Shown one piece after another: positions 11,437 through 18,482 of a stretch of 64,000 nt of DNA. The first letter of the stretch is position 1, and every line of letters starts with the position of its first letter. The translations under genes and the position numbers were made by a program. The notes beneath the pieces are model-generated. The model had not been told where the DNA came from and ran no database searches. It saw only the letters and a list, made by a program, of their open reading frames with translations. The DNA lies in NCBI GenBank assembly GCA_025938935.1, contig JAPCWB010000001.1, positions 1,736,001-1,800,000 on the forward strand. The letters run 5' to 3'. The DNA is from Novosphingobium sp. MW5 (GTDB lineage: Bacteria > Pseudomonadota > Alphaproteobacteria > Sphingomonadales > Sphingomonadaceae).

Positions 11437-13650
11437 TTACATTTGCAGAGGCGGCATCGCTGGCTTGGCCTTTCCGCTGGACTTGCTTTTTGCCGGAACC
11501 TTGATCTTCGGATCGGGGTAAGGCTCGCCCAGATCGACCGGATCGATCACGCGCTTGGCGGGGTCCTTGACCAGTTCCCACGCGGCGTTGGCCTCTTCCA
11601 GGGTTTCATAACAGTATTGCCCGGTGCCATCGCCATGTGCGCCTTCGCGGAAGCGCTTGTCCGCGTCCTTGCCGTAATATCCGACCGGCAGATCGGCGCG
11701 GAACATGTTCTTCTCCGGCAGACGCGTGCCGACGGGGACGATCACGCATTTGCGGTAGCGTTTGCAGGCCATTTCTAGCACTTCGTCGCGCTGGTCGGTG
11801 GGCGTCGACTGGCATGAGGCGACCAGCGCCGTGTGGTCGCGGGCAAGGTCATAGGCCTTTGCGTCGATCTTCTCCTCGGCGACCCATTGGCACCTGTCGC
11901 TATGCGGATGCACGGGATTTCCGGCCGCCTTGGCGCAGGTTTCGGCGAGCTTTGCCGGATCGGCGCTGATGGCCTGCCATTCCGCCTCCTCGCGCTTGCT
12001 CTTGAGGTCATCGCATTTGAACTGGAGACTGTTGGGCGCGCGCGCTTCGAGCACCGGCACCGACGCCGCACTGCCTTCGCTTTCCTCCTTGGCTTCAGCG
12101 GCGCGGCGGGCGGCGTCCTGCGCCTCGATCACGGCGCATTGCACGGCAAGCTCGGCAGGCGAGATGGCCTCCACCGCCTTGCGCTCGCGCTGCCATTCCG
12201 CTGCTTCGCGATCGGACTTGATTGCGGCGCAGGCCTCCTCAAGCGGGTCGTCACTAGCGAACTGCGGATACTTGTAAGTACAGCGCCGGTCGTACTCCGC
12301 CGGGCTCTTTTCCATCAGCAGTCGCAGGCGCGTGGACTCCTTGCGATGGAGATCGGCGGCGCGGTCCTGGCATGCCTTGCCGAGTGCGGTGGCGGGGGTA
12401 TCGTACTTGCCGATGGTGACCGCTTTGCACGGCGGATCGAGCGCAGCGGGATTGGCCAGCAGCTTCTTCGCCTCGGCATCGATCCGCGCGCGTTTGGCCT
12501 GCCACTTCACGTGATCGAGAGAGCTCTCGCAGGCCCTGCGTTCGATCGCGGAGCGCTTGTCCGCCGGGGTGCGTACACAAAGTTTGTCGCGCTGAACCGC
12601 ATCGAAGTTGAGCTTCGATTCGAGCTCGGCGAGGGCGTTGCTCTCTTCCTCGTCGGCCTTCAGCTTGGCGCAGCCGCGGCGGGTGTTTTTCTCGAGGAAG
12701 GGGTTCTTGCCGGGTTCGTCGATGTCGCGGCAAATGGTTCGTGCCCAGCGGCCGCCCATCATGCCGACGGGGTGGGCGTCATCGTCCTTTTCGGCGATTA
12801 CCGCGCGCATACGTTCGAGGTAGTCGATCCTGCCGTCGTCATCGCCGCCGTTCATATCGACCACATGCGGGTTCACAGGCCGCTTCGGGCGCTGCGCGTC
12901 AGCCTTCGCATAGAGCGCGTCGATCGCCTTGAGCGCCTCGTCCCAGCGTCCGGTCTCGCGCAGGGCGTTGATGCGGAAGGCGGCGAGCTGGATGGCGAAG
13001 GCGGGAGGGAAACCGGGGGCGGCGGCGAGCGCCTCGCTCTCGTCCGCAATCCGCGTCATCCAGCGCTTGCGGTCCTCGGGAGTCTTGGCGACCCACGCTG
13101 CGCGTTGGAGAAGATGGAAGCGCTGCGAAGCCGGGCGGCCAAGCTTTTCGGAGAGCCAGAGCAGACGCGCCGCGCGGCTGTCCTTGCGCAGGGCCTGATA
13201 TTCGGGCGTCGCGATCAGCGCGGGCAGCTTGGCAATCTCGGCTGGCGTGTATGCCTCCTGACTGTCGCCTTCCGCGTGGCGGTATTCGTTCATCAGGATG
13301 AGGCCGTTGGAGGGACATTCGGGCAGCTGGACGTCGCTCTGCTCCGATCCCGGACCGCCGCCATCGGGGTAGCTTTCGAGCGGGAAGGTGAAGGCGTCGA
13401 TCACCTGAGCGAATTTCTCCCCGCCGACCGGGCAGGTAAATTCCACAGGCTTGCCGTAATTGTGGCGGGGGCCTTCGGTCTCGGCAGGCTCGCTGTCATC
13501 GGCAGCGGCATCGGAAGCAGCCGCCGCGGCCTCGCGCGCGGCTTCCTCGGCGGCTAACCGGGGATCGCGCGACGGTTGCGCCAGCAAGGGGGTTAGCACG
13601 AACGCTCCGGCCAGAATGAAGGCTCCGGCTAGTGCCCGAACGTTACGCAT
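11437..13650 (-). CDS. large secreted protein with cysteine-bearing helical repeats, unknown function
   Basis: 737 residues. The ATG at 13650 has AGGGG upstream and starts a signal peptide (MRNVRALAGAFILAGAF...). After an Ala-rich linker comes a region with CPVGGEKFAQVIDAF and CPSNGLILMNEY, then helical repeats with about 25 cysteines spaced one per helix turn unit (ECDDLKSKREEAEWQ-like, CAAIKSDREAAEWQRER, CQDRAADLHRKEST). The spacing suggests a disulphide-braced, TPR-like rod in the periplasm or outside the cell. I recognise no named family. It is a single gene between convergent and co-directional neighbours. Confidence 0.7.
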   Translation of the reverse strand: MRNVRALAGAFILAGAFVLTPLLAQPSRDPRLAAEEAAREAAAAASDAAADDSEPAETEGPRHNYGKPVEFTCPVGGEKFAQVIDAFTFPLESYPDGGGPGSEQSDVQLPECPSNGLILMNEYRHAEGDSQEAYTPAEIAKLPALIATPEYQALRKDSRAARLLWLSEKLGRPASQRFHLLQRAAWVAKTPEDRKRWMTRIADESEALAAAPGFPPAFAIQLAAFRINALRETGRWDEALKAIDALYAKADAQRPKRPVNPHVVDMNGGDDDGRIDYLERMRAVIAEKDDDAHPVGMMGGRWARTICRDIDEPGKNPFLEKNTRRGCAKLKADEEESNALAELESKLNFDAVQRDKLCVRTPADKRSAIERRACESSLDHVKWQAKRARIDAEAKKLLANPAALDPPCKAVTIGKYDTPATALGKACQDRAADLHRKESTRLRLLMEKSPAEYDRRCTYKYPQFASDDPLEEACAAIKSDREAAEWQRERKAVEAISPAELAVQCAVIEAQDAARRAAEAKEESEGSAASVPVLEARAPNSLQFKCDDLKSKREEAEWQAISADPAKLAETCAKAAGNPVHPHSDRCQWVAEEKIDAKAYDLARDHTALVASCQSTPTDQRDEVLEMACKRYRKCVIVPVGTRLPEKNMFRADLPVGYYGKDADKRFREGAHGDGTGQYCYETLEEANAAWELVKDPAKRVIDPVDLGEPYPDPKIKVPAKSKSSGKAKPAMPPLQM

Positions 13651-13753
13651 GACGTGATCCCCTTCGGCCAAATGCGGCCTCCCACGGGGAACTTGGCAGA
13701 TATGCTCCGCGCGTCAACCGATTGAATATGCGGTGAAGTGCGCGCGGGAGAGG

Positions 13754-15013
13754 CTATTCCGCTGCCTGCTTTTCCAAATGCCACTCCGGTGCCTTTTCCG
13801 CCGCCAGCAGGCGCAGCATCTCGGCCTCGATATAGTCGCGCGTGTTGGGCACGGCGTCACGGCGCTTCACCGTCTGGAACTGGAAGTTGACGAGGTTGCC
13901 GTGGCGGAAGCCCTGTTCGGCACCGGCCAGGTAGAACTGCCACATGCGGAAGAAGCGGGCATCGTAAAGCTGCTCGATCTCCTCGCGGTGGAGCGTTGCG
14001 CGGCGGTACCATTCGGCCAGCGTGTAAGCGTAGTGGTAGCGCATCATTTCGAGGTCGGCGATCTCCCAGCCGGTCCGTTCGAGCGACGCGGACATTTCGC
14101 TCACCGCCGGCAGGTAGTGCCCGGGGAAAATGTACTTGCGGTTCCACTTGTCGGTCGCACCGCTCTGTTTCAAGCGGCCGATGGTGTGGGTCAGCATGAC
14201 GCCATCAGGTGCGAGGAGGTCCCAGGTCTTGGAGAAATACTCGTCGTAATTCTTCAGGCCGACATGCTCGAACATGCCGACACTGGCGATGCGGTCAAAC
14301 TGGACATTGACGTCGCGGTAATCGGTCAGCTGGAACTTCACCTTGTCCGCAACGCCGGCCGCCTCGGCGCGTTCGTTGGCGAAGCGCACCTGATCGGGCG
14401 CAAGGCTCACGCCGAGCACTTCGCAGCCGTAGTGCCGGTTGAGGAACAGGCCAAAGCCGCCCCAGCCCGAACCAATATCCAGCACCCGCATTCCGGGTTC
14501 GATCCGCAACTTCGCGGCGATCAGCGCCTTCTTGTCGAGCTGCGCCTGTTCCAGCGTGCCGTTCGGATCGCGCCAATAGGCCATCGTATACTGGCGATCG
14601 GCATCGAGGAACAGCTCGTAGAAACGCCGCGTAAGATCGTAATGATGTTCGACATTCTTGGCGGCGCGGGCGCGGTAGTTGTTCTGGTCGAGCCTTGACG
14701 CAACCTTGTCCAGCACCCGCCGCAGCGGGTTGCGTGCGCGCACCTTGTCGCCCGAACCCTGGCTCATGACAAACAGGATAAAGTCGCGCACGTCGTGCGG
14801 CGGCTCGATTACCAATCGGCCATCCATATAGGCCTCACCCGCGCCGATGCGTGGGTCCTTGGCGATGTGCAGCGCCGCGCCCTTGTCGGTCAGGCAGATG
14901 TGGAGGGGATCGGCGGCAGGCTCACCATAGGTGTAGGTCTTGCCGTCATAGTCGGTCAGCACGAGCCGACCCTTGCGGATCAGCGCGCGCAGCATCTTGT
15001 CTAGCAGCCACAT
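13754..15013 (-). CDS. cfa: cyclopropane-fatty-acyl-phospholipid synthase
   Basis: SAM-dependent enzyme that adds a methylene across the double bond of membrane phospholipid acyl chains. 419 residues with the N-terminal lipid-binding part and a class I methyltransferase domain: NVEHHYDLTRRFYELFLD, the SAM loop VLDIGSGWGGFG near residue 180, MFEHVGLKNYDEYF and HTIGRLKQ. The C-terminal half has YAYTLAEWYRR and RMWQFYLAGAEQGFR, typical of Cfa. The start is the ATG at 15013, MWLLDKMLRALIRKG. Confidence 0.95.
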   Translation of the reverse strand: MWLLDKMLRALIRKGRLVLTDYDGKTYTYGEPAADPLHICLTDKGAALHIAKDPRIGAGEAYMDGRLVIEPPHDVRDFILFVMSQGSGDKVRARNPLRRVLDKVASRLDQNNYRARAAKNVEHHYDLTRRFYELFLDADRQYTMAYWRDPNGTLEQAQLDKKALIAAKLRIEPGMRVLDIGSGWGGFGLFLNRHYGCEVLGVSLAPDQVRFANERAEAAGVADKVKFQLTDYRDVNVQFDRIASVGMFEHVGLKNYDEYFSKTWDLLAPDGVMLTHTIGRLKQSGATDKWNRKYIFPGHYLPAVSEMSASLERTGWEIADLEMMRYHYAYTLAEWYRRATLHREEIEQLYDARFFRMWQFYLAGAEQGFRHGNLVNFQFQTVKRRDAVPNTRDYIEAEMLRLLAAEKAPEWHLEKQAAE

Positions 15014-15057
15014 GCGGCAAGCCTATGCCACTTGTGCACAAAGGCAAGTTCGATCTG

Positions 15058-15639
15058 TCAGCCGAGCCAGCCGAGCGCCGAACCGAGTTGCCAGACGCCG
15101 AGAACGAAGAACAGCGCCGCTGCCGCCGTGCGCGCGGCCTTCAGCGAGACGCGTTTCACCAGTTCCTCGCCGAGGAAAACAGCTGGCACATTGGCGATCA
15201 TCATGCCCAGCGTAGTGCCGGCGGCGACGGTGAGCACGTCACGATAGTGCGCGGCCAGGGCGATCGTGGCGACCTGGGTCTTGTCCCCGATCTCGACGAA
15301 AAAGAACGAGACCAGCGTGGTGAGGAAGGCACTGCTTTTGGTGCGAACCGATGCTTCCTCGTCGTCGTCCAGCTTGTCAGGCACCAGCGTCCACGCGGCC
15401 ATCGCAATGAAGCCGAGGGCGACCGCGACGCGAAACCATTGCGACTCAACCAGTCCGGCCACCTCGCGCCCGACCAGTGCGGCCAGCGCATGGTTGGCAA
15501 TGGTCGCGAAGAAGATACCGGCGACGATCTGCCACGGCGCGCGCAGGCGGGCGGCGAGGACGATGGCCAGCAGCATGGTCTTGTCGCCGACTTCGGCAAG
15601 CGCGACGACAGCGGTGGAGGTAAGCAGGGCTTCGAGCAT
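15058..15639 (-). CDS. TMEM165/GDT1 (UPF0016) family Mn(2+) exporter
   Basis: Inner-membrane cation transporter; bacterial members export manganese. 193 residues, about six membrane helices in two halves. Each half has the family motif E-x-G-D-K-T (EVGDKT at 16-21, EIGDKT at 116-121), and an acidic loop (LDDDEEAS) lies between. The ATG at 15639 is preferred to longer frames, which would run into the riboswitch. The upstream leader holds a yybP-ykoY Mn riboswitch and a hairpin next to the ribosome site, so expression should rise with manganese. This link supports the Mn role. Confidence 0.92.
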   Translation of the reverse strand: MLEALLTSTAVVALAEVGDKTMLLAIVLAARLRAPWQIVAGIFFATIANHALAALVGREVAGLVESQWFRVAVALGFIAMAAWTLVPDKLDDDEEASVRTKSSAFLTTLVSFFFVEIGDKTQVATIALAAHYRDVLTVAAGTTLGMMIANVPAVFLGEELVKRVSLKAARTAAAALFFVLGVWQLGSALGWLG

Positions 15640-15706
15640 GAAAGGACTCCGGGCCGGGTGAAGGCGATACAACGACACCGTCCCTTCCACCCGGCCGGGC
15701 GAAGGT
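15640..15706 (-). promoter_or_regulatory. expression platform of the Mn riboswitch
   Basis: Between the aptamer and the start codon, GGCCGGGTG can pair perfectly over 9 bp with CACCCGGCC. The second arm runs directly into CCGGAGTCC, which holds the ribosome-binding sequence, so the hairpin could open or close translation start. There is no T-run, so control of translation is more likely than termination. Confidence 0.6.
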
Positions 15707-15711
15707 TCGAT

Positions 15712-15822
15712 GTCATTGGTCTCGCCCGAACGTTTCCGTTCTCCGCATGCCACAGCCTCTCGGCCAAGTATGTTGACAGTGCGGGGCCGCAGGGACTTGC
15801 GGCTGGCTACTCCCCAGATGAC
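15712..15822 (-). ncRNA. yybP-ykoY manganese riboswitch (aptamer)
   Basis: Read on the minus strand, the leader has the conserved marks of this class: CTGGGGAGTAGC (15816-15805), then CTGTCAACATACTTGGC, a CATGCGG arm, and GGGCGAGACC. A closing stem pairs GTCAT-c-TGG with CCAATGAC. The element is about 110 nt long and sits 72 nt before the start of a TMEM165/UPF0016 gene, a usual partner. The class senses Mn(2+), and binding typically turns the exporter on. Confidence 0.92.
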
Positions 15823-15866
15823 GCGCTCCCCTTAGCAAGCAGGGCTGCAATGGCAATCGCGAAGTT

Positions 15867-16625
15867 TTACTGCCGGGCGAGGTACAGCACGTCGCGCGGC
15901 TGGCTGAGCAAGTGCTGGCCCGAATCGATGAACAGGCTTTCGCCGCTCGCCAGCCAGCCTTCGGACAGCCACAGCGCGGCGTGGGCCAACTCCTGCGGAT
16001 CGGTGATGCGGCCCAGCAGGTTCATCCGGCCCGAAAGTTCGTGCTCCTCGTCGCGCTGGTCATGGCTGGGCAGCATGGCGCCCGGGGCAAGTCCGTAAAC
16101 CCGGTCGCACGGGTCATCCTGCGCCATCGCCAGTGTCCGCACCGACGCCGCCAGCGCGTTCTTGGCCATGGTATAGGAGAAGAAATCGGGATTCGGATTG
16201 GCCACTTTCATGTCGGTGAACTGGATCACGCGACGGCCGCCCTGCGCCCTGGCCGAGCGCAGGAAGGCCTGCGCCATGCGCACCGGCGCGGCGGCGTTGA
16301 CTGCCATGGCCTCGGCAAAGACGGCGGGATTGATGCGGTCTGCGCGGTCTTCATGGAACACGGCAGCGTTGTTCACCAGCACGCGCCAGTCGGGCAGGCG
16401 GGCTGCGAGGTCTTCGACCATCGCCTCCGCCGCGTCGCCGTTGGATAGGTCGCACTGCACCACTTCCGCGCTGGGGAGCTCGGCGGCGAGCGCCTCTGCC
16501 TCGTCATGCGAGAAGCCATGGTGGATGACCACGTGCCAACCGGCCGCGCCGAATGCGCGCGCCAGCACCGCGCCGATGCGGCGGGCGGCTCCGGTGATCA
16601 GGACGGCGGGTTTTCCCTTGGACAT
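15867..16625 (-). CDS. SDR family oxidoreductase, possibly pteridine/dihydromonapterin reductase-like
   Basis: A 252-residue Rossmann enzyme of the classical short-chain dehydrogenase type. The cofactor loop is TGAARRIGAVLA near residues 11-22, with an Arg pair that favours NADPH and is typical of FolM and PTR1-like reductases. VLVNNAAV and the catalytic YTMAK follow; the usual Ser position reads IQFTDMK. The substrate is not certain. It is divergent from the PhzF gene, with starts 65 nt apart. The ATG at 16625 fits the family start. Confidence 0.85.
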   Translation of the reverse strand: MSKGKPAVLITGAARRIGAVLARAFGAAGWHVVIHHGFSHDEAEALAAELPSAEVVQCDLSNGDAAEAMVEDLAARLPDWRVLVNNAAVFHEDRADRINPAVFAEAMAVNAAAPVRMAQAFLRSARAQGGRRVIQFTDMKVANPNPDFFSYTMAKNALAASVRTLAMAQDDPCDRVYGLAPGAMLPSHDQRDEEHELSGRMNLLGRITDPQELAHAALWLSEGWLASGESLFIDSGQHLLSQPRDVLYLARQ

Positions 16626-17531: not shown

Positions 17532-17900
17532 CTACTTGCACTTCATGTTGCCCTTGGCCAGTTCGCGTCCAAGCACGGCCCCGCCGACAGCACCGACGAT
17601 CGTGCCAAGGGTCCGGTTGCCGCGACCGGCGATGCGGTTGCCGAGGAAACCGCCCAGTGCCGCGCCGATGACGAGGCCGGTCGTACCGTTCTTGCGCTTG
17701 CAATAGTACTGGCCGTCCTCACCCTGCCAGACGCGGTCATTCGAGTTCAGCGTCTGGGGGTTAACGTATTGGCCGTTCGCGTCGTATGCGACGGAGTTCT
17801 CGGTAGTGGCGCCGCCGTAGGTGTAGGCGGGTTGCGCCATCAGGGGAGCCGACAGGCTGGCAGAAGCGGCCATGGTGAGAGCGACGAGCGACTTGCGCAT
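17532..17900 (-). CDS. glycine-zipper 2TM domain protein (copy A)
   Basis: 122 residues with a signal peptide (MRKSLVALTMAASASLSAPLMAQ). The exported part has DRVWQGEDGQYYCKRKNGTTG and then a glycine zipper of two hydrophobic helices (GLVIGAALGGFLGNRIAG and GTIVGAVGGAVLGRELAKG), ending MKCK. Such proteins insert in or bind the outer membrane. It is a tandem paralogue of the next gene, with the same YYCKR-NGTTG-IGAA core. AGGAT lies 7 nt before the ATG. Confidence 0.85.
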   Translation of the reverse strand: MRKSLVALTMAASASLSAPLMAQPAYTYGGATTENSVAYDANGQYVNPQTLNSNDRVWQGEDGQYYCKRKNGTTGLVIGAALGGFLGNRIAGRGNRTLGTIVGAVGGAVLGRELAKGNMKCK

Positions 17901-18027: not shown

Positions 18028-18381
18028 TTAACGGCAGCGCGAATTGCTGCGTTCGATCTCGCGGCCGAGAAGGGCGCCCGCGGCAGCGCCGATGATCGTG
18101 CCGGTAGCGCGGTCACCGCGCGTGTCGATCGCACGGCCCACCAAGGCACCCCCAGCGGCACCGATCAGCAGGCCGGTGGTGCCGTTGCTGCGCTTGCAGT
18201 AATAGCGGCCATCGCGGCCCTGCCAGTAACGCACGCCATTGTCAGTCTGGCGATAGGCGATGTTGCCGTTTTTGGCGCGATAGCCATTGGCCGGGGCCCA
18301 CGACGGCGGAGCGGCATAGGCGGTGGCAACGGGCAGCGCCATCGTGGCGAGGCCGGCGGCGATCAGTGTCTTGCGCATCAT
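18028..18381 (-). CDS. glycine-zipper 2TM domain protein (copy B)
   Basis: 117 residues from the first of two adjacent ATGs, with AGGAG upstream. It has a signal peptide (MMRKTLIAAGLATMALPVATAYA), then GVRYWQGRDGRYYCKRSNGTTG and a glycine zipper (GLLIGAAGGALVGRAID, GTIIGAAAGALLGREIE) ending NSRCR. Layout and key residues match the neighbouring copy, so the two arose by duplication. The leader peptides differ. Envelope location inferred. Confidence 0.85.
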   Translation of the reverse strand: MMRKTLIAAGLATMALPVATAYAAPPSWAPANGYRAKNGNIAYRQTDNGVRYWQGRDGRYYCKRSNGTTGLLIGAAGGALVGRAIDTRGDRATGTIIGAAAGALLGREIERSNSRCR

Positions 18382-18482
18382 GAGTGCAGTCTCCTTTTGC
18401 GTGTCTAAACGTGTGGGGACACAAAAGGGTTCCGCGGCTGAACGCCGGATTGCCGCAGCGTTGGACTGCCCGGAAGGCACGA

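Follow-up and report, generated by a model that had tools for sequence, protein, structure and literature searches.

The locus described here lies on the minus strand of a 64,000-nucleotide stretch of the genome of Novosphingobium sp. MW5, which was analysed as a whole, is referred to below as the window, and is numbered from its first letter. Minus strand 15822-15640 is a yybP-ykoY manganese riboswitch upstream of a GDT1/UPF0016 gene. The leader stands between a gene of the SDR family (15867-16625) and the transporter gene, all three on the minus strand, and a cyclopropane fatty acid synthase-like gene (13754-15013, minus strand) lies behind the transporter at a distance of 44 bases. The coordinates of the individual features are collected in Table 1.

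Table 1. Features of the riboswitch locus, in window coordinates.
Feature	Position	Strand	Basis or remark
Likely -35 element TTGCCA	15851..15856	-	begins at -41 from GGGGAGTAG
Likely -10 element TAAGGG	15829..15834	-	T/A enrichment at -19/-18
Mn2+ riboswitch aptamer (yybP-ykoY, RF00080)	15718..15822	-	42.3 bits, E 3.8e-10
Strand A, P1 5' strand plus conserved loop, GUCAUCUGGGGAGUAG	15807..15822	-	P1 covariation
Conserved aptamer loop GUCAACAUACUUGG	15764..15777	-	sequence; columns conserved in 62 leaders
Strand B, P1 3' strand (15719-15712) and anti-P1 helix 5' strand (15718-15708)	15708..15719	-	
Strand C, 5' strand of the RBS-adjoining hairpin	15686..15696	-	C:E helix covariation
Strand D, anti-P1 strand CGGUGUCGUUG	15670..15680	-	B:D covariation; partner shuffling 0/5000
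Strand E, 3' strand of the RBS-adjoining hairpin	15652..15662	-	C:E pairing, covariation, permutation
Ribosome-binding region CCCGGAG	15647..15653	-	possible pairing of CCCGGA to UCUGGG (strand A, 15818-15813)
GDT1/UPF0016 (TMEM165-family) cation transporter, 193 aa	15058..15639	-	PF01169, two E-x-G-D-K-T motifs

The aptamer, its target gene and the promoter region

When 501 bases were searched with the RF00080 (yybP-ykoY) covariance model, a match was obtained at 15642-15816 of the minus strand (42.3 bits, E 3.8e-10), the range of which takes in the expression platform, within the 3' part of the model. The leader is absent from the Rfam cut-off listing because this score falls short of the gathering score (45); a search of the window at the Rfam gathering thresholds returned a tRNA as its sole entry. 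Sub-threshold scores of this kind are common in the family to which the window genome belongs, where 397 genomes were searched: 166 have a match at E <= 0.001, and the cut-off is reached in 102. The whole genome holds one RF00080 match, with two more at E 3.7 and 5.7. The leader also folds better than 200 of 200 dinucleotide shuffles (z -2.5). Regarding membership of the class, the two conserved metal-site loops, GGGGAGUAG and GUCAACAUACUUGG, are present together with the 3' segment GGCGAGACC, and the aptamer is closed by the P1 switch helix, whose 8 pairs have 96.9% of their cells paired in an alignment of 62 leaders (described below). The original prediction, which had been made from the letters alone, named three yybP-ykoY core strings, and these are found on the minus strand where it had placed them (GGGGAGTAG at 15815-15807, GTCAACATACTTG at 15777-15765 and GGCGAGACC at 15726-15718). 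The closing stem that it proposed is likewise present, GUCAU(c)UGG (15822-15814) pairing with CCAAUGAC (15719-15712), and the RF00080 check suggested for the manganese-riboswitch identity gave the significant, though sub-threshold, match reported above. The leader of the window can be expected to bind Mn2+.

The protein encoded downstream matches PF01169 in two stretches with 134.5 bits (cut-off 27), in agreement with the TMEM165-family assignment made beforehand, and carries EVGDKT and EIGDKT, i.e. the duplicated E-x-G-D-[KR]-[ST] motif that the GDT1 family requires. A search for further GDT1 matches in the genome found none, leaving the window gene as the sole one. The same genome contains one Nramp gene and TerC matches in three stretches at two places, and no match was found when MntP was sought in it; on this inventory, Mn export in this organism may fall mainly to GDT1. 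In the published accounts, as far as they were available to us, the Vibrio UPF0016 member MneA exports Mn and its gene is induced by Mn. The Vibrio system resembles that of the window in transporter family and in riboswitch class, with a gene that is Mn-induced, a likeness that is known from gene and riboswitch class, and by family and by analogy with MneA the window protein is probably a Mn exporter. We do not retain the suggestion that the leader ties an uncharacterised membrane protein to Mn balance: according to the portions of the literature at hand the family is already known as one of Mn transporters and its link to the riboswitch is published, one review placing the UPF0016 gene under a yybP-ykoY riboswitch in 328 of the 333 screened strains having a UPF0016 gene. 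Both riboswitch and target gene are of ordinary, known kinds, and their pairing is already in print.

In the case of the promoter, 61 upstream regions were compared by counting from GGGGAGTAG. T occurs at -42 in 46 and at -41 in 39 of them, position -19 is T in 34 and position -18 is A in 41, and a TTG...TA spacing is seen in 51 of the 61, a raw count uncorrected for chance. A consensus scan for sigma-70 sites in 14900-16000 found none. Transcription would start near 15825-15820.

Strands and crossing helices of the expression platform

Five strands describe the platform: A is the 5' strand of P1 (GUCAUCUGGGGAG) and B its 3' strand (CCAAUGACAUCG), followed by C (GGCCGGGUGGA), D (CGGUGUCGUUG), E (UUCACCCGGCC) and the Shine-Dalgarno sequence (SD) CGGAG. 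They allow the helices A:B (P1), B:D (11 pairs) and C:E (11 pairs), as well as a pairing of A with the end of E and the SD (UCUGGG/CCCGGA). P1 and B:D are mutually exclusive because both use the same bases of strand B, and the helices B:D and C:E cross each other. The C:E hairpin joins 15696-15686 to 15662-15652 by 11 contiguous pairs, the outer 9 of which are free of G-U, and its 3' end lies 2 bases upstream of the GGAG at 15650-15647, the start ATG being at 15639-15637. A scan of the minus strand at 15640-15830 for terminator-like sites, and thus for an intrinsic terminator in the leader, found none. The 9-bp hairpin that the original prediction had set at the ribosome-binding sequence is present and somewhat longer than described, and the view of the platform as translation-type rather than terminator-type agrees with the empty scan and with a hairpin that stops just short of the GGAG. 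The description was incomplete in that the crossing second helix B:D had been missed, and the sequestering role implied for the hairpin is not kept in the reading that we prefer (see below), in which C:E would be a partner of the ON state and the 5' strand of P1 would cover the SD.

Several samples of leaders underlie the comparison of these helices. A protein search yielded 402 confirmed relatives, the best 80 of which were taken as related loci; core and platform lie upstream of the gene in 61 of these 80, and the 62-leader alignment is made up of those 61 and the window. For the 19 of the 80 loci without a core string, the search for a riboswitch gave no RF00080 match at E <= 0.01. The distant set comprised 50 loci (L085-L136 minus L115 and L116), from which 2 without core and 6 with doubtful starts or genes were dropped to give 42 leaders, 29 of them non-redundant and used in the permutation of distant alphaproteobacterial leaders. 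A draw across the phylum consisted of 65 loci and E. coli mntP, of which 61 yielded a start; these 61 include E. coli mntP and 7 alphaproteobacterial leaders, and the genes behind them, assigned by motif or by eye, include GDT1, MntP and TerC-like ones. For permutation, 10 doubtful, 7 alphaproteobacterial and 10 redundant leaders were removed from the 61, leaving 34. Finally, 35 new loci were collected, 2 of them without core, so that 33 were usable and 8 were non-redundant.

Within the 62 leaders, B:D and C:E taken together have 93.1% of their cells paired, with changes on both sides in 11 of 20 pairs (5.8 in shuffles, 0/500) and in 87 cells (12.8 in shuffles, 0/500). Individually, B:D has 90.0% of cells paired and both-side changes in 7 of 11 pairs, and C:E 96.9% and 4 of 9, respectively. 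In P1 both sides changed in 3 of 8 pairs, amounting to 9 such cells against 0.7 in shuffles (0/500), and further pair types numbered 5, under the shuffled mean of 5.6. Permutation of partners gave 0/5000 for B:D and 0/5000 for C:E. The best crossing pair of the B-C-D-E type beats all 40 dinucleotide shuffles in 54 of the 62 close leaders (beaten by at most two in 61), in 31 of the 42 distant alphaproteobacterial ones (38) and in 46 of the 61 leaders of the phylum draw (58). Of the 42 distant leaders, 38 have a C:E helix that ends 9-17 nt upstream of the start codon, i.e. short of the SD. As for the riboswitch class itself, RF00080 matches occur in 57 of 385 alphaproteobacterial genomes, in 127 of 398 genomes of the phylum, and in 8 of 43 and 47 of 76 genomes of two further orders.

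Judged from these alignments, P1, B:D and C:E exist and covary, and P1 excludes B:D. We take the platform, with its two crossing helices, to be a switch by strand exchange whose conservation reaches well outside the genome of the window. A four-strand partner exchange beside the start codon seems to be widely recurrent and little described; in the literature searched, as far as its contents were available, we recognised no published description of this platform, and we do not claim that it is absent from print.

Proposed cover of the Shine-Dalgarno sequence and direction of switching

The reading that we favour, and hold to be fairly probable, is that the Mn riboswitch controls the translation of a GDT1-family Mn exporter and turns it on with Mn, by a partner exchange among four strands. 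With Mn bound, P1 (A:B) would be held and strand D left free, while C would pair with E in a helix that stops just before the SD and so leaves it open. Without Mn, D would take B into the anti-P1 helix B:D, C would sit in the loop of that helix and E would be free, and the released A would pair with the 3' end of E and with the SD, thus blocking it. We infer an ON direction and an output that lies mainly in translation, rather than in RNA stability or in termination by Rho.

Two strands are candidates for covering the SD, namely A and C' (the linker before C), and both pairings are possible. In the 29 non-redundant distant alphaproteobacterial leaders, the pairing of A with the 16 nt that precede the start codon is specific to the cognate leader (19/10000), to about the same degree as P1 (37/10000), and in 23 of the 29 it covers 4 or more of the positions from -13 to -6. 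A control of A against the first codons of the same leaders leaned likewise (324/10000), so part of this signal may be composition, and the value of 19/10000 does not come from an independent test, because the idea of A:SD pairing arose partly from leaders L094, L102 and L105, which were among those tested. Among the new leaders the pairing of A with the ribosome-binding site (RBS) gave 25/10000 for all 33 usable and 817/10000 for the 8 non-redundant ones, and the first-codon control in the 33 gave 4843/10000. The same pairing was not cognate-specific in the 34 non-redundant leaders of other Proteobacteria (3276/10000; P1 there, 0/10000), nor in the 62 close leaders (3574/5000; P1, 2437/5000 by the same test, which has low power there), where neither helix is specific because strand A hardly varies. 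A CCC is present within -22 to -9 in 61/62, 35/42 and 35/43 riboswitch leaders, versus 7/19 GDT1 genes without riboswitch; this could reflect base pairing to the invariant GGGG in strand A or, alternatively, an avoidance of G runs near the start. Over these comparisons the proposed A:SD pairing is partly supported.

Energy folding was of less help regarding direction. When nested folds were computed for the 62 leaders with P1 or B:D imposed, the SD was more open under P1 in 20; with P1 imposed it paired with the C' linker at a mean probability of 0.46, and with B:D imposed the mean probability of SD:A was 0.19, the value for the window leader being 0.00. A 6-pair A:SD helix does appear when 15840-15640 is folded to minimum energy, whereas it is missing from the constrained fold that includes the gene start. 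Across the 62 leaders the Mn-free balance favours B:D against P1, the mean difference being about 9 kcal/mol, and a switch that worked by thermodynamics alone would therefore require a large contribution from the ligand. Direction derived from nested folding is not decisive, and more often opposite to the preferred reading. Since imposed folding leaves the matter unsettled, the ON direction is taken from comparison: the family exports Mn, Vibrio mneA is Mn-induced, E. coli mntP is switched on by Mn and has the same crossing order, and inactive and active forms have been described for E. coli alx.

According to the published material available to us, the E. coli mntP leader is a Mn-induced translational riboswitch. 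It shares the crossing order with the window (8/200 shuffles, at the annotated start), and in it C:E stops 12 nt upstream of the start codon; unlike the window leader it controls MntP and not GDT1, and its B:D begins later in the P1 strand, the overlap with P1 being judged by eye. For E. coli alx (PRE element), the available accounts describe hairpin C as the inactive form, stem C/D as the active form and G134A as locked active, in a switch published as driven by pH and pausing whose RBS is blocked by another hairpin. As in the window, an anti-P1-like hairpin (C) is there in the inactive form and its loop pairs downstream in the active one. By residue numbers hairpin C would map to B:D and stem C/D to C:E, a mapping that is tentative because the best crossing pair found by the program in alx differs, and the downstream helix of that pair would form part of hairpin D, which in the published scheme is inactive. 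Differently from the proposed platform, A:RBS pairing in alx is weak (-4.5 kcal/mol). In the L. lactis yoaB type, again as far as the published description at hand goes, the 3' strand of the switch helix P1.1 enters an intrinsic terminator in the Mn-free state. This RF00080 type shares with the window an aptamer core and a switch helix whose 3' strand is contested without Mn, but in the window that strand passes into the anti-P1 helix, and the scan for terminator-like sites was empty.

The opposite sign would follow if Mn, by holding P1, let C:E extend through C' into the SD and block it, and if in its absence B:D held C and left the SD open, so that Mn would repress the gene. The pairing of the SD with C' under imposed P1 speaks for this arrangement, as do matching changes in C', noted by eye, in leaders with an unusual SD (L024, L026 and L060), and a C':SD test of 312/5000 in the 62 close leaders after trimming of 2 nt. 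However, as a conserved sequestering helix C':SD had to be rejected, the C':RBS tests not being cognate-specific in the 29 distant alphaproteobacterial leaders (6010/10000), in other Proteobacteria (7872/10000) or in the new leaders (6218/10000). The halt of C:E before the SD in the distant leaders, the export of Mn by the gene family and the published Mn induction of mneA also argue against repression, which we regard as unlikely. A further arrangement keeps B:D and C:E together without Mn, as an H-type pseudoknot that would form the OFF fold by the SD and from which Mn would remove B:D only. The helices do cross, in principle the linkers have sufficient length (medians 11, 6 and 10 nt over the 62 leaders) and both duplex energies are strong in each of the 62, yet linker L2 spans 0 to 17 nt and an SD-covering role of strand A would be left unexplained; such a pseudoknot seems improbable to us.

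Control of transcription, with premature termination, intrinsic or Rho-dependent, as the main output, is in our view very unlikely. Published accounts, in the parts available, describe the E. coli mntP leader as being also a Rho termination site and include terminator-type members in the riboswitch class. Against this stand the lack of a terminator-like site on the minus strand of the leader and a platform whose length and C:E placement are fixed relative to the start codon, and Rho action could also add to a translational effect. The preferred reading, i.e. partner exchange with Mn turning translation on, might have a wider validity, although we put this forward tentatively and would not call it probable. 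It would make the exclusion of {B:D + A:SD} by {A:B + C:E} the common translational output of proteobacterial yybP-ykoY riboswitches (those of GDT1, MntP and TerC-like genes), in which the RBS region would mimic the P1 3' strand and D would mimic A, Mn sensing thereby being passed to the SD via the closing strand of the aptamer itself. If the partner-exchange platform holds, it would offer a single testable account of the route by which Mn acts on the ribosome-binding site across much of the Proteobacteria, and it would explain both the C-rich strand beside the SD and the second helix that crosses the hairpin.

Presence of the riboswitch at related loci and the wider neighbourhood

In a FastTree tree of 81 proteins the window protein pairs with L004 (support 0.935) within an 11-member clade (0.994). 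At each of these 11 loci the SDR gene lies upstream, and the riboswitch is found in 2 only (the window and L007), being absent from L004, L005, L006, L008, L009, L010, L013, L015 and L042. At the riboswitch-less loci of the clade gdt1 begins close to the SDR stop or overlaps it, and translational coupling may have replaced the riboswitch at those nine SDR-gdt1 loci. The presence or absence of the riboswitch at one locus within a small clade makes a natural comparison possible.

Some minor observations were made on the same loci. The order of transporter and cyclopropane fatty acid synthase-like gene recurs in 5 of the best 80 of 402 relatives, all of them without riboswitch. At L061, D- and E-like sequence was seen by eye about 90 bases upstream of position 2001, with no aptamer match, and this is possibly a decayed riboswitch. 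L040 and L046 are on contigs labelled as Acidobacteria MAGs; their gdt1 genes and leaders are very like those of the Hyphomonas locus L043, and the contigs are likely mis-binned. Elsewhere in the window, the minus strand at 11437-13671 holds an open reading frame of 744 aa with no Pfam match at E <= 0.001, and two small glycine-zipper proteins (PF05433) are encoded in tandem at 17532-17900 and 18028-18480 of the minus strand, before an RlmN-like gene.
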